The notes beneath the pieces were generated by a model. That model saw only the letters and a list, made by a program, of their open reading frames with translations, made no database searches and was not told where the DNA came from. From positions 372,001 through 436,000 of the forward strand of contig NZ_ATXC01000001.1 of NCBI RefSeq assembly GCF_000421485.1: DNA of 64,000 nucleotides. The letters are read 5' to 3'. This DNA comes from Desulfurobacterium sp. TC5-1. Lineage in GTDB: Bacteria; Aquificota; Aquificia; Desulfurobacteriales; Desulfurobacteriaceae. The first letter of the stretch is position 1, and each line of letters starts with the position of its first letter. This document shows positions 28,749-33,640 of the stretch, piece by piece. A program made the translations under genes and the position numbers.

Positions 28749-29309
28749 TTAAGATATAATTCCTTTATTCCTTAAACTTTTGTATGCATCTAAGAATTTT
28801 TTGACTTTTCCCATTGAAAATATGGCCTGGTATAGAGAGTAACCTGATAGAAGATAACCAAGCAACAAAACCTCTTCCACACTTTCAAGGTGAAAGTCTT
28901 TTACGTTGACATTAATATTTTCATTGTCTGGAAAATCTCTGATCTCGTCAACTTCCCTTATTACATCTAAAAATAACGTTTCAAAATCCTGAATCTTAAA
29001 CATTTCCTCTTTTTCTTTTGTAACTGTTTCGAAAAAGACATCTTCAAAATCTATAAGAAACATAAATATGGTTGCCTTTATAAAACTTTCAACAGGAATT
29101 TTGTTGTTCATAAAGTTGAAGTACAGCAAAACGAACTCTTTGCAGTCACATTCGAGAGCCACAAGTGCCCCTTCTTTAAAAGAGAGGAAGAGACGCTTTC
29201 CATCTTTTTCATGAGTAAGGCATAAATTAATTGTCATCTTCATCTGTGTAACCAGCTTTATCAGGTCGAAAAACTCTTGATAAGAAGAAAATTTTCCTTT
29301 CAAAACCAT
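28749..29309 (-). CDS. Hypothetical protein with a DUF4388-like N-terminal region
   Basis: Not firmly recognised. The first 70 residues (MVLKGKFSSYQEFFDLIKLV, then a strand-rich part with RLFLSFKEGALVALECDC) resemble DUF4388/PATAN domains: a start of leucine-glycine strands, a helix, then two strands ending in a gene-product-like FKEGxLV motif. Such domains occur in bacterial signalling and gliding regulators. The rest is mostly helical and acidic, with no enzyme motif, no signal peptide and no clear membrane helix. It has 186 residues. ATG 29309 has GGAG 7 bases upstream; a TTG 27 bases further up does not. It is divergent from the DUF2148 gene and has its own -10 box. Confidence 0.6.
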   Translation of the reverse strand: MVLKGKFSSYQEFFDLIKLVTQMKMTINLCLTHEKDGKRLFLSFKEGALVALECDCKEFVLLYFNFMNNKIPVESFIKATIFMFLIDFEDVFFETVTKEKEEMFKIQDFETLFLDVIREVDEIRDFPDNENINVNVKDFHLESVEEVLLLGYLLSGYSLYQAIFSMGKVKKFLDAYKSLRNKGIIS

Positions 29310-29338
29310 CAAAACACTCCATACCTGATTTGACAAAT

Positions 29339-29397: not shown

Positions 29398-29432
29398 TAG
29401 TTTTGATTACAAAGGCTTTAATGGAGGTTTTT

Positions 29433-29948
29433 ATGGAATTTATCTCAAAAACCGTTTTATCCATAGCTGAAATGATGTGTGCTGCTGCAATCACCGCACC
29501 GAAAGGCAAAGGTATTAATCTTTTACACGTTGAGGTGTTTACAGGTTCAAAAAAAGATGAAGTGGCAGAACTCATGGCTACGATAGGTAGAGAAAAAAAC
29601 ATTCCCTTTTTTATAAGAGATGCCGAAAACGTTTTTGACGCAGTGTGTGTGGTGTTCATAGGAACAGCTATAACACCAAGGAGAGTGCCAAACTGTGGAT
29701 TTTGTGGTGCAAAAAACTGTGAAGATGCGCTTTCAAGAGGGATACACTGTGCCTTTGCAACAGGTGATTTAGGGATAGCCATTGGCTCGGCTGTATCCAT
29801 GGCCTCACTACACCACATAGATAACAGAATAATGTTTTCCTTTGGAAAAGCAGCAATAGAAGGTGGATTTGTTCCTGAAAAAATAAAAGTGGGATATGGC
29901 ATACCGTTGTCCGTAAGTGGAAAAAACATATTCTTTGACAGGAAGTAG
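29433..29948 (+). CDS. DUF2148 ferredoxin-domain protein
   Basis: The family is annotated as uncharacterised proteins with a ferredoxin-like domain and is found mostly in anaerobes. The N-terminal half has MMCAAAITAPKGKG, and the central cysteine motif PNCGFCGAKNCEDA would hold an iron-sulfur cluster together with further Cys residues (MMC, IHC). The second half contains CAFATGDLGIAIGSAVS and ends with KVGYGIPLSVSGKNIFFDR, both typical. It has 171 residues. ATG 29433 follows GGAGG by 6 bases; ATG 29421 would include that site. CorA starts 3 bases after its stop, so the two are co-transcribed. The function is unknown; a redox role in anaerobic metabolism is likely. Confidence 0.8.
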   Translation: MEFISKTVLSIAEMMCAAAITAPKGKGINLLHVEVFTGSKKDEVAELMATIGREKNIPFFIRDAENVFDAVCVVFIGTAITPRRVPNCGFCGAKNCEDALSRGIHCAFATGDLGIAIGSAVSMASLHHIDNRIMFSFGKAAIEGGFVPEKIKVGYGIPLSVSGKNIFFDRK

Positions 29949-30944: not shown

Positions 30945-32183
30945 ATGGATATGATGATTCCTCTTGGTGGCGGAAATGAGATAGGTGCAAGTGCCTATCT
31001 CTATATGATAGGTGGAAAAAATATACTGATAGACTTTGGAATAAGGTTTAATCCAGAAGAACCGTATCCGGATCCTGAGTTTTTAAAAACGCTTGCGCCT
31101 GAACTTGACGCTATAATAATAACTCATGCTCATATAGATCACTGTGGTGCTTTTCACATAATATCTAGCTTCTATCCAGAAACACCCGTATATACAACAT
31201 TTGAGACAGCAGAACTTTTATCGGTAATGGTGGAAGATGCTATAAAGGTTAGGTACATTGGGATAGAGGAGGAAGCAACATCTGAATATAAACTGTTTGA
31301 CGAAGCGTTTTTAAGGATAGAAAGAAAGGATTTTTTCTCATCGATAGTGATAGACAACATTGAGATCACTCTGTACCCTGCGGGACACATACTTGGTGCA
31401 GCTGCTGTTTTAATGAAATGGGAAGGGAAAACGCTGTTTCATACAGGTGATATTTCGTTGAAAGACCAGATAACAGTAAAAGGTGCTGTTTTACCGGAAG
31501 AAAAGATTGACTATCTGATTATGGAAAGCACCTATTACTATACAAAAACCGAAAAAACTTCTGGCGAAACATTAGAGGAAAGTATAAGCCGTATTCTTAG
31601 TAGAAAGGGAAAAATTCTTATTCCTGTATTTGCTTTAGGAAGAGCACAAGAGATAATTTCTATTATTAAGGAAGGCATAAAAAGCGGTGAAATTCCTCCT
31701 GTTAATGTTTACGTTGATGGTCTTGCCAGGGAGATATGTAACATTTACGAACATAATATCGACAGGGAATTTTTCAATTTTTACATACAACCGGCACCAA
31801 GATACGAGGGACTGTCATTTGAGGAGGCATGTGAAGAAAATATAAGAGAGGCTGACATAATTGTTTCAACTTCAGGAATGTTGATGGAAAATACACCTTC
31901 TCACGCCTATGCAAAAATCATAGGAAAAAGAGGGAAAAACGGCATAATATTCAGCGGTTATTTATCTGAGGAAAGTTTTGGATTTAAACTTATGAAAAAC
32001 CGCCATCAATTTAAGCAATTCAAATGTGAAATTTTAAAGCATCATCTGTCAGCACATTCAAAAAGAGAAGATCTTGAAAAAATCAGAAGAATTCTCAGAC
32101 CTGAAAAAACAATTTTAATACACGGTTATCCTGGAAAACACCACAAAGAGCATGCGGCCAATAGGGAGGTTATTTACCTTTGA
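30945..32183 (+). CDS. Beta-CASP-type metallo-beta-lactamase fold RNase-like protein
   Basis: A member of the RNA-processing branch of the MBL superfamily (RNase J/CPSF-like). Metal ligands: HAHIDH at 61-66, His148 in AGHILGA and Asp169 in HTGDISL. The beta-CASP cap follows, with the motif A acid Glu194 in MESTYY, VPVFALGRAQE-like (IPVFALGRAQEI), a TSGMLMENTPSHAYA block, the HHLSAHSKREDL motif and a final His in ILIHGYPGKHHKEH. The 412 residues are shorter than RNase J, with no C-terminal dimer domain. It overlaps the actin-like gene by 4 bases. The ATG lacks a close ribosome site. RNA or DNA substrate cannot be decided from sequence. Confidence 0.83.
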   Translation: MDMMIPLGGGNEIGASAYLYMIGGKNILIDFGIRFNPEEPYPDPEFLKTLAPELDAIIITHAHIDHCGAFHIISSFYPETPVYTTFETAELLSVMVEDAIKVRYIGIEEEATSEYKLFDEAFLRIERKDFFSSIVIDNIEITLYPAGHILGAAAVLMKWEGKTLFHTGDISLKDQITVKGAVLPEEKIDYLIMESTYYYTKTEKTSGETLEESISRILSRKGKILIPVFALGRAQEIISIIKEGIKSGEIPPVNVYVDGLAREICNIYEHNIDREFFNFYIQPAPRYEGLSFEEACEENIREADIIVSTSGMLMENTPSHAYAKIIGKRGKNGIIFSGYLSEESFGFKLMKNRHQFKQFKCEILKHHLSAHSKREDLEKIRRILRPEKTILIHGYPGKHHKEHAANREVIYL

Positions 32184-33640
32184 GACTTTATCTGGGGTAT
32201 CCTGAATCTTACGCAGATGAAAGAACTTTTAAACTTAAAGATCTTTTTCTTAAAGAGGTAAACGTTTCGTATGACTCTATTCCTGTAGAAGTGAAGAAAA
32301 AGCTACTTGGCCTTCTTGATGCATTGAAAGAAAAAGATTACGTATTTATAAACGATATTTATTATGATGCCTCTGATATTTTGGAATTTGCACTTTTCGG
32401 TATTAAAAATCAGAAAATAGAAAGAGTAATACTTCCTGGATATACTTATGGAAAACCCACATTTATAATAAGAGAAAGCTTAAAAACGATTTTAGGTAAA
32501 AAGAAAAATGACATAAACATTTTTTATGACTTTAATCTGTTTACAGAAGAAACGCTTGTAATAAATATTGGTTATAGAGAGACATCTTTATCGATTGGCG
32601 GCAATTTTTTATCGGTTATCAACATTGGAGAATTCAACTTCATTGACGTGTTCGGCAATTATCTCTTTAACCGATTTTTGAGGGATATGAAAATTTCCAA
32701 TGTATCTCTGAGAAAGGAAGGAAAAAGAGGAAAATATCTTGATAAGTTCAGAGCAATGGGGGCAAGAGTTCTTCTTAAACGGAGTGATGAAATTTGCGTT
32801 AAAGAAGAAAACTACCAAAGAAGAGTCAGTGATGAAGAAGTAAAAATGGCTCTTACTCCTTTGGCGGGACAGGTTAACTTTGGTGAATTTACGCCAGAGA
32901 TTACAGACTTATCATCGGCTATAGTTAATGCTCTTTACGCCTATGAAGAGGAAAAGAGAGAAAAACCTGTTATCAAAAAAATTGCAATAATAGGAAGGAT
33001 TGCCAACCTGTACAGGGAAACAGTAGAGAGGATTTTCGGTTTACCGCCAGAAATTGTAAATCCTCAAGAGCTACTTAAAAAAGAAGTTATTAATTGTAAG
33101 AATAGAATTTCTTTTCACAGGATGAAAACTAAATATAACGGAAAGAGTTATTCAGAGATAGAAGATTTACCTGTAAAACGCAGGAGCTTCAAAGAATTGC
33201 TATTCGAACTGAGGAAAGATTTCAGGAAGAGAGATGTTACTGGTGTGAAAATTATAGAGACGCTTACGGAAATGAACCTGAACAGTTATGAAATGAGGAC
33301 ATTTATAAATGAACTTTTGACGATGGTGAGGATTGCTTCATTTAAAGATGCTAAAATGATACCTTACATAGACTATATAATTGCCGCATTTTCGAAAATA
33401 GAAATTCCTGAAGATCTCTTTTGCGAAGTGGAAAATTACATAAAAAAAGTTGCGTTTAGATGGAATTTACCGCTTAAAACGAGGATGAATATTATCTACT
33501 TTTGTTATAGACACAGAGAGAAACTTCAGGGGAAAGAATGGTTTAAAATTCTTCTTCCTTTGACAATAACATGGATACGGGATAAAAAATTGACAGAGGG
33601 AGAAAGGCAGTTTATCAGGACTGCTACGGAAATCAGATAA
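32180..33640 (+). CDS. Unrecognised protein with actin/Hsp70-like ATPase motifs
   Basis: No family is recognised with certainty. Two blocks resemble the actin-Hsp70-FtsA fold: TLVINIGYRETSLSI at about 125-139, like the phosphate 2 loop, and KIAIIGRIANLY with ERIFGLPPEIVNPQE at about 267-297, like the adenosine-site helix and the VNPDEA end of Hsp70. The first phosphate loop (DxGT) expected near the N-terminus is not seen, and the glycines of the adenosine loop are partly replaced, so ATP hydrolysis may be lost. The last 150 residues are helical and basic to neutral (helical repeats or a partner-binding tail). The TTG start overlaps the stop of the beta-CASP gene, so the two are made together. 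Confidence 0.6.
   Translation: MRLYLGYPESYADERTFKLKDLFLKEVNVSYDSIPVEVKKKLLGLLDALKEKDYVFINDIYYDASDILEFALFGIKNQKIERVILPGYTYGKPTFIIRESLKTILGKKKNDINIFYDFNLFTEETLVINIGYRETSLSIGGNFLSVINIGEFNFIDVFGNYLFNRFLRDMKISNVSLRKEGKRGKYLDKFRAMGARVLLKRSDEICVKEENYQRRVSDEEVKMALTPLAGQVNFGEFTPEITDLSSAIVNALYAYEEEKREKPVIKKIAIIGRIANLYRETVERIFGLPPEIVNPQELLKKEVINCKNRISFHRMKTKYNGKSYSEIEDLPVKRRSFKELLFELRKDFRKRDVTGVKIIETLTEMNLNSYEMRTFINELLTMVRIASFKDAKMIPYIDYIIAAFSKIEIPEDLFCEVENYIKKVAFRWNLPLKTRMNIIYFCYRHREKLQGKEWFKILLPLTITWIRDKKLTEGERQFIRTATEIR

Follow-up and report, generated by a model that had tools for sequence, protein, structure and literature searches.

In the window analysed here (the whole stretch of 64,000 nucleotides, taken from a genome of 1.65 Mb), a gene encoding a predicted beta-CASP nuclease (MBL) overlaps a gene encoding an orphan protein with a predicted actin/Hsp70 (ASKHA) fold (ActL). 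We propose, with a probability of about 55%, that in Desulfurobacteriaceae MBL and ActL are the two obligate subunits of an RNA endonuclease, with ActL providing in trans the binding of RNA or of a partner. The features on which the analysis is based are the following:

30945..32183, plus strand: MBL, predicted beta-CASP metallo-beta-lactamase nuclease, aCPSF1/INTS11-like and KH-less (412 amino acids, ATG start)
31122..31148, plus strand: motif 2 of MBL, THAHIDHCG, with metal ligands H61, H63, D65 and H66 (invariant in 18 orthologs)
32121..32123, plus strand: motif C of MBL, His393, the RNA-type residue (invariant in aligned orthologs)
32163..32170, plus strand: Shine-Dalgarno sequence AGGGAGGT for ActL, within the conserved NREV codons (Asn-Arg-Glu-Val) of MBL (GAGGT in 20 of 20 genomes)
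32180..32183, plus strand: TTGA overlap between the TTG start of ActL and the TGA stop of MBL (20 of 20 genomes)
32180..33640, plus strand: ActL, orphan protein with a predicted actin/Hsp70 (ASKHA) fold (486 amino acids, TTG start, no family match)
32180..32542, plus strand: predicted lobe I of ActL, residues 1-121, where conservation is highest, with the conserved stretches GYP, YDAxDxLEF and LPGYxYGKxT (modelled with low confidence at about residues 21-77)
32543..33079, plus strand: predicted lobe II of ActL, residues 122-300, with a phosphate-2-like block holding the invariant Asn129, a IIB-like insert and an adenosine-like block holding the invariant Gly272-Arg273
33080..33184, plus strand: variable linker of ActL, residues 301-335, with no invariant residue
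33185..33637, plus strand: basic helical-repeat tail of ActL, residues 336-486

MBL displays the full beta-CASP architecture, with Pfam matches to Beta-Casp, RMMBL and several Lactamase_B models. It carries the HxHxDH signature (H61-A-H63-I-D65-H66), the motif 3 His (H148) and the motif 4 Asp (D169). The metal ligands and their neighbours (D30, H61, H63, D65, H66, H148 and D169) are unchanged in the 18 aligned orthologs, as are E194 (motif A), H371 (motif B) and H393 (motif C). The full metal set and beta-CASP motifs that a preliminary description had attributed to the first gene are therefore borne out. The residue found in motif C is a His in nucleases acting on RNA and a Val in those acting on DNA (PMC4770246). 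The sequence supports MBL as an RNA-type beta-CASP enzyme, and we infer that its substrate is RNA. Its nearest PDB sequences are INTS11 (134 bits), aCPSF1 (133), CPSF73 (129), TTHA0252 (108) and Cas14 (103). MBL is related to the enzymes that cut mRNA 3' ends in animals and archaea. With the aCPSF1 model TIGR03675, MBL scores 208.6 bits, under the equivalog cut-off of 580 bits, and with the RNase J model TIGR00649 it reaches about 40-48 bits for a cut-off of 400. Residues 6-399 (out of 412) align to positions 179-604 of the 631 positions of the aCPSF1 model. Since the match is restricted to these positions, MBL lacks both the KH domains (first 178 positions) and the C-terminal dimer segment (last 27 positions) of aCPSF1. 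Termination by aCPSF1 depends on both parts, the KH domains for binding terminator U-tracts and the C-terminal 12-13 residues for forming the dimer (PMC8716108).

MBL is not the only ribonuclease of these bacteria. Desulfurobacteriaceae retain RNase E/G and RNase Y, and MBL as a substitute for a missing main RNase was therefore rejected. Furthermore, 16 of 20 genomes encode a second, more distant beta-CASP protein (about 465 amino acids, 26-31% identity to MBL in the same search) that resembles those of other Aquificota, so that MBL adds to the usual enzyme rather than replacing it. This second protein (G000:C1:191518) is possibly of the TTHA0252 type. Among 26 relatives tested, none encodes a protein that scores over the RNase J cut-off, and the absence of RNase J is thus not special to Desulfurobacteriaceae. 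With RNase E/G and RNase Y present, and in most cases another beta-CASP protein as well, general RNA decay does not require the pair; this favours a specific RNA role over a general one. Distant beta-CASP proteins (L139, L140 and L141; 23-26% identity) also occur on IMG/VR contigs.

The association of MBL with ActL is strict. ActL is present in 20 of the 22 Desulfurobacteriaceae genomes, including Desulfurobacterium and Thermovibrio assemblies, and exactly these 20 genomes carry an MBL ortholog (55-85% identity; in one genome a contig end truncates the gene). The named relatives with the pair all belong to this family, which places the window in Desulfurobacteriaceae (Aquificota). The two other genomes, which are 83-85% complete, lack both genes. 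ActL comes immediately after MBL in 20 of 20 genomes belonging to seven genera; a check for unlinked genes in relatives thus found that adjacency held throughout. Among 136 Aquificota genomes, none outside Desulfurobacteriaceae encodes ActL. Pattern scans across 84,980 species gave matches in this family only; beyond Aquificota these scans used exact peptide patterns, by which distant relatives could be missed. A weak match in another genome (G051) was discarded as due to chance, being located in a RuvB-like ATPase, as judged by its visible Walker-type motif.

The genes that surround the pair are less stable. The gene located upstream encodes CorA in this genome and a phosphatidylethanolamine-binding protein (PEBP) in all nine readable loci of other genera. 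Downstream neighbours also vary between genera. The products of the neighbouring genes identified on either side of the pair are CorA, PEBP, LpxC, a radical SAM protein and a sugar transferase. MBL and ActL have thus remained adjacent despite changes in the genes around them. The two genes had been described as forming their own unit. This holds across genera, where the upstream gene changes, but not clearly here, as a crude scan of the 48-base gap between CorA and MBL revealed no convincing promoter and the pair may be cotranscribed with CorA in this genome. Other genes of the window include a DUF2148 ferredoxin-domain gene immediately preceding CorA (29403-29948), a gene on the minus strand that matches DUF4388 below threshold (28749-29336) and is located between apparent aspartyl-tRNA synthetase and DUF2148 genes, and an AdoMet synthetase gene matching PF01941 (38809-40008), which we take to be the archaeal-type family, here in a bacterial genome.

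The junction itself carries signals of translational coupling. The TTGA overlap of four bases reported earlier is present here and in all 20 pair-carrying genomes, and it is always preceded by GAGGT inside MBL. The Glu codon that underlies this Shine-Dalgarno sequence is GAG in 18 of 18 aligned MBL genes, although these genomes are related, so that the independent events behind this count are fewer than 18. By comparison, GAG accounts for 12-81% of the Glu codons of the aligned MBL genes, and the 15 other conserved Glu columns show GAG in at most 15 of the 18 sequences, none being all GAG. This constancy points to selection for the translational coupling of ActL to MBL. Since both reading frames are uninterrupted and 20 genomes keep the overlap as well as the Shine-Dalgarno sequence, the pair is not due to chance. 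Moreover, ActL of this genome and ActL of G001 differ at 101, 73 and 251 sites for codon positions 1, 2 and 3, respectively, the pattern expected of a protein under purifying selection. The divergences of MBL and ActL are correlated (r 0.91, 153 pairs), and this correlation was discounted as evidence of contact because common ancestry explains it.

ActL resembles no known family in sequence. Comparisons with Pfam, NCBIfam, PHROGs, PADLOC and PDB sequences gave nothing above noise, and none of the 20 members attains the curated Pfam scores for FtsA, PilM, MreB or Hsp70. AlphaFold2 models were built with 11 family sequences and reached a pTM of 0.69 for ActL of the window and 0.83 for an ortholog (mean pLDDT 82). 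In the ortholog model, lobe I is arranged as b1-b2-b3-a-b4-a-b5 (residues 2-113). Lobe II comprises b1-b2-b3-a (122-167), a IIB-like insert (171-226) and a-b4-a-b5 (241-290), and it is followed by a linker and an eight-helix repeat (333-474). This order of secondary structures is that of the actin/Hsp70 fold, with its two duplicated RNase H-like lobes. In Foldseek comparisons with the PDB, the window model retrieved DnaK (E 1.3e-4, probability 1.00) as well as nuclear actin and actin-related proteins (0.92-0.99). The ortholog model retrieved HSP70 (1.00), the INO80 Arp module (0.99) and MreB (0.98), with no hit reaching E 0.001. The tail matched natural and designed helical repeats. The actin-type fold proposed from the sequence thus stood when structures were predicted, since both models retrieved such proteins, and the announced helical tail of about 150 residues corresponds to residues 336-486, modelled as eight helices. 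TM-scores in Foldseek are about 0.3-0.43 and residues 21-77 are poorly modelled; we have good confidence in the predicted fold of lobe II and of the tail, and moderate confidence in that of lobe I.

Profile-profile comparisons do not confirm this kinship. In hhalign, ActL paired with PilM, FtsA, DnaK or MreB with probabilities of at most 5.5%, near those of reversed-profile controls, whereas FtsA-PilM and FtsA-MreB reach 97.7% in the same test. For lobe II and DnaK, 135 columns aligned in a plausible register with a score barely over the reversed control. Since these scores are not significant, the kinship of ActL with actin rests on predicted structure. Neither Hsp70/DnaK nor a typical MreB was found in this genome or in 15 other Desulfurobacteriaceae genomes, and the recognisable actin-fold members in those tested are FtsA-like and PilM proteins. 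The loss of DnaK in two members of the family has already been published (Warnecke 2012, as cited in PMC8215388). We do not claim that ActL is a relic of a lost DnaK or MreB, as the sister family f2 also lacks DnaK yet has no ActL. The FtsA-like protein of Desulfurobacteriaceae (about 422 amino acids; G000:C1:1003097-1003546 and orthologs) is itself diverged, with at most 66 bits to Pfam FtsA versus 110-124 in other Aquificota, and its gene lies about 4 kb from ActL in one genome (G010). The window also contains a PilM-family (actin-fold) gene (972-1886), about 30 kb from ActL, with no detected sequence kinship to it.

In the three species for which they were computed, ActL has a pI of about 9.2 and MBL a pI of 5.4-6.3, and the mean charge of the ActL tail is +4.8. 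MBL is acidic and devoid of RNA-binding and dimer parts, and ActL is basic; most simply, ActL would bind MBL and provide the missing RNA or partner binding in trans. MBL would then be the catalytic beta-CASP subunit, devoid of the RNA-binding and dimer parts of aCPSF1, and ActL an actin-fold scaffold that is not catalytic and most likely does not hydrolyse ATP. The two-lobed body of ActL would dock on MBL, and RNA, RNA polymerase or the ribosome would be recruited through the basic lobe II of ActL and its helical-repeat tail. The Shine-Dalgarno sequence in the last MBL codons and the overlapping TTG start would couple the translation of ActL to that of MBL; we propose that, as a result of this coupling, ActL is made beside freshly synthesised MBL. 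The physical complex and the scaffold role of ActL are thus what we infer.

Other roles can be considered for ActL, notably that of a nucleotide-driven clamp or sensor that would gate MBL on RNA. The ASKHA-like fold is in favour of such a role, as are the phosphate-2-like and adenosine-like blocks of the preliminary description, which were found at residues 125-141 and from 267-273 onward; G131, S138, G141 and G272 are invariant. However, the phosphate-1 turn reads GYPxS and is devoid of an acidic residue, the phosphate-2 Asp is replaced by Asn (N129) and the Gly-Gly of the adenosine motif is Gly-Arg (G272-R273), so that none of the 20 ActL sequences has the residues of ASKHA ATPases. The first phosphate loop had been reported as missing; in the models, residues 2-18 do form a strand-turn-strand at its place, and only its acidic residue is absent. 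The invariant R273 suggests a filled or re-used pocket. Given these altered residues, no ATP hydrolysis by ActL is expected. ActL probably does not bind ATP either and is probably a pseudo-ATPase scaffold. Hence, the nucleotide sensing suggested earlier finds no support, an ATP-gated clamp is less likely than a nucleotide-free scaffold, and we regard the clamp as unlikely.

ActL could also be a dedicated assembly factor or inhibitor that would stabilise MBL until its placement in another complex, in the way that BRAT1 stabilises INTS11 in animals (PMC9418311). Coupled synthesis would put ActL on new MBL, DnaK has been lost from Desulfurobacteriaceae and the ActL tail matches chain T of the INTS9-INTS11-BRAT1 structure in Foldseek. 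This match is not significant (E 1.1), however, and no third conserved neighbour, which might have pointed to the final complex, is common to all genera, so that this role appears doubtful. Coupling might instead serve dosage only, the two proteins acting separately in one pathway. Gene overlaps are frequent in thermophiles with small genomes, but perfect co-occurrence and adjacency across seven genera, despite changed flanking genes, make this explanation quite improbable. Finally, the pair might be a defence or mobile module, as is the beta-CASP subunit Cas14 of type VII CRISPR, whose model MBL matches with 164 bits, far under the 800-bit cut-off. Against this, the pair is single-copy in 20 of the 22 family genomes, ActL was found neither in PADLOC nor in the plasmids and viral contigs searched and has no credible phage match, and no cas neighbours (cas7 or cas5) occur among the genes identified around the pair. 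A defence role thus seems very improbable indeed.

The open-licence literature searched for beta-CASP nucleases with an actin-fold partner, beta-CASP proteins in Aquificota and MBL/Hsp70-like operons contained no description of such a pair. Hence, MBL is a known kind of enzyme, and ActL and its pairing with MBL appear new. If a two-subunit endonuclease is confirmed, beta-CASP nucleases would have a further way of being targeted besides KH domains and dead beta-CASP copies, and actin-fold pseudo-enzymes would gain a role in bacterial RNA cleavage. Being small, thermophilic and single-copy, the pair should suit structural work.

The archaeal aCPSF1/FttA shares with MBL the beta-CASP fold and motifs and the TIGR03675 match; unlike it, MBL has neither KH domains nor the C-terminal dimer segment, and its proposed partner is a separate protein of predicted actin fold, encoded by its own gene. 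The TTHA0252-type bacterial beta-CASP RNase is KH-less, as is MBL, and of similar length (431 amino acids), but MBL scores higher to INTS11 and aCPSF1 and shares only 26-32% identity with its paralogs. In eukaryotes, the catalytic INTS11 works with its inactive homolog INTS9 (PMC9418311). Like INTS11 with INTS9 or BRAT1 and CPSF73 with CPSF100, the proposed MBL-ActL enzyme would associate a catalytic beta-CASP protein with a non-catalytic partner. Unlike in these complexes, this partner is not a dead beta-CASP copy but has a predicted actin/Hsp70 fold and a helical tail. More speculatively, and with a low likelihood in our view, the pair could be a bacterial two-protein counterpart of archaeal FttA and of the animal Integrator cleavage module, in which an actin-fold pseudo-ATPase would take over from the KH domains and from the second beta-CASP subunit, coupling RNA cleavage to transcription or translation. 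As for ActL, its predicted two-lobed fold has core strands and helices in the same order as the Hsp70 nucleotide-binding domain, nuclear Arps and MreB, FtsA and PilM. It differs from these ASKHA families by its lack of significant sequence kinship, its altered nucleotide-site residues and its extra helical-repeat tail. Degenerate actin-fold proteins already serve as scaffolds for nucleic-acid enzymes, for instance TsaB with TsaD in tRNA t6A synthesis and Arp4 and Arp8 in INO80. In these cases the catalytic partner is another ASKHA protein or a helicase, whereas the proposed partner of ActL is a beta-CASP nuclease.
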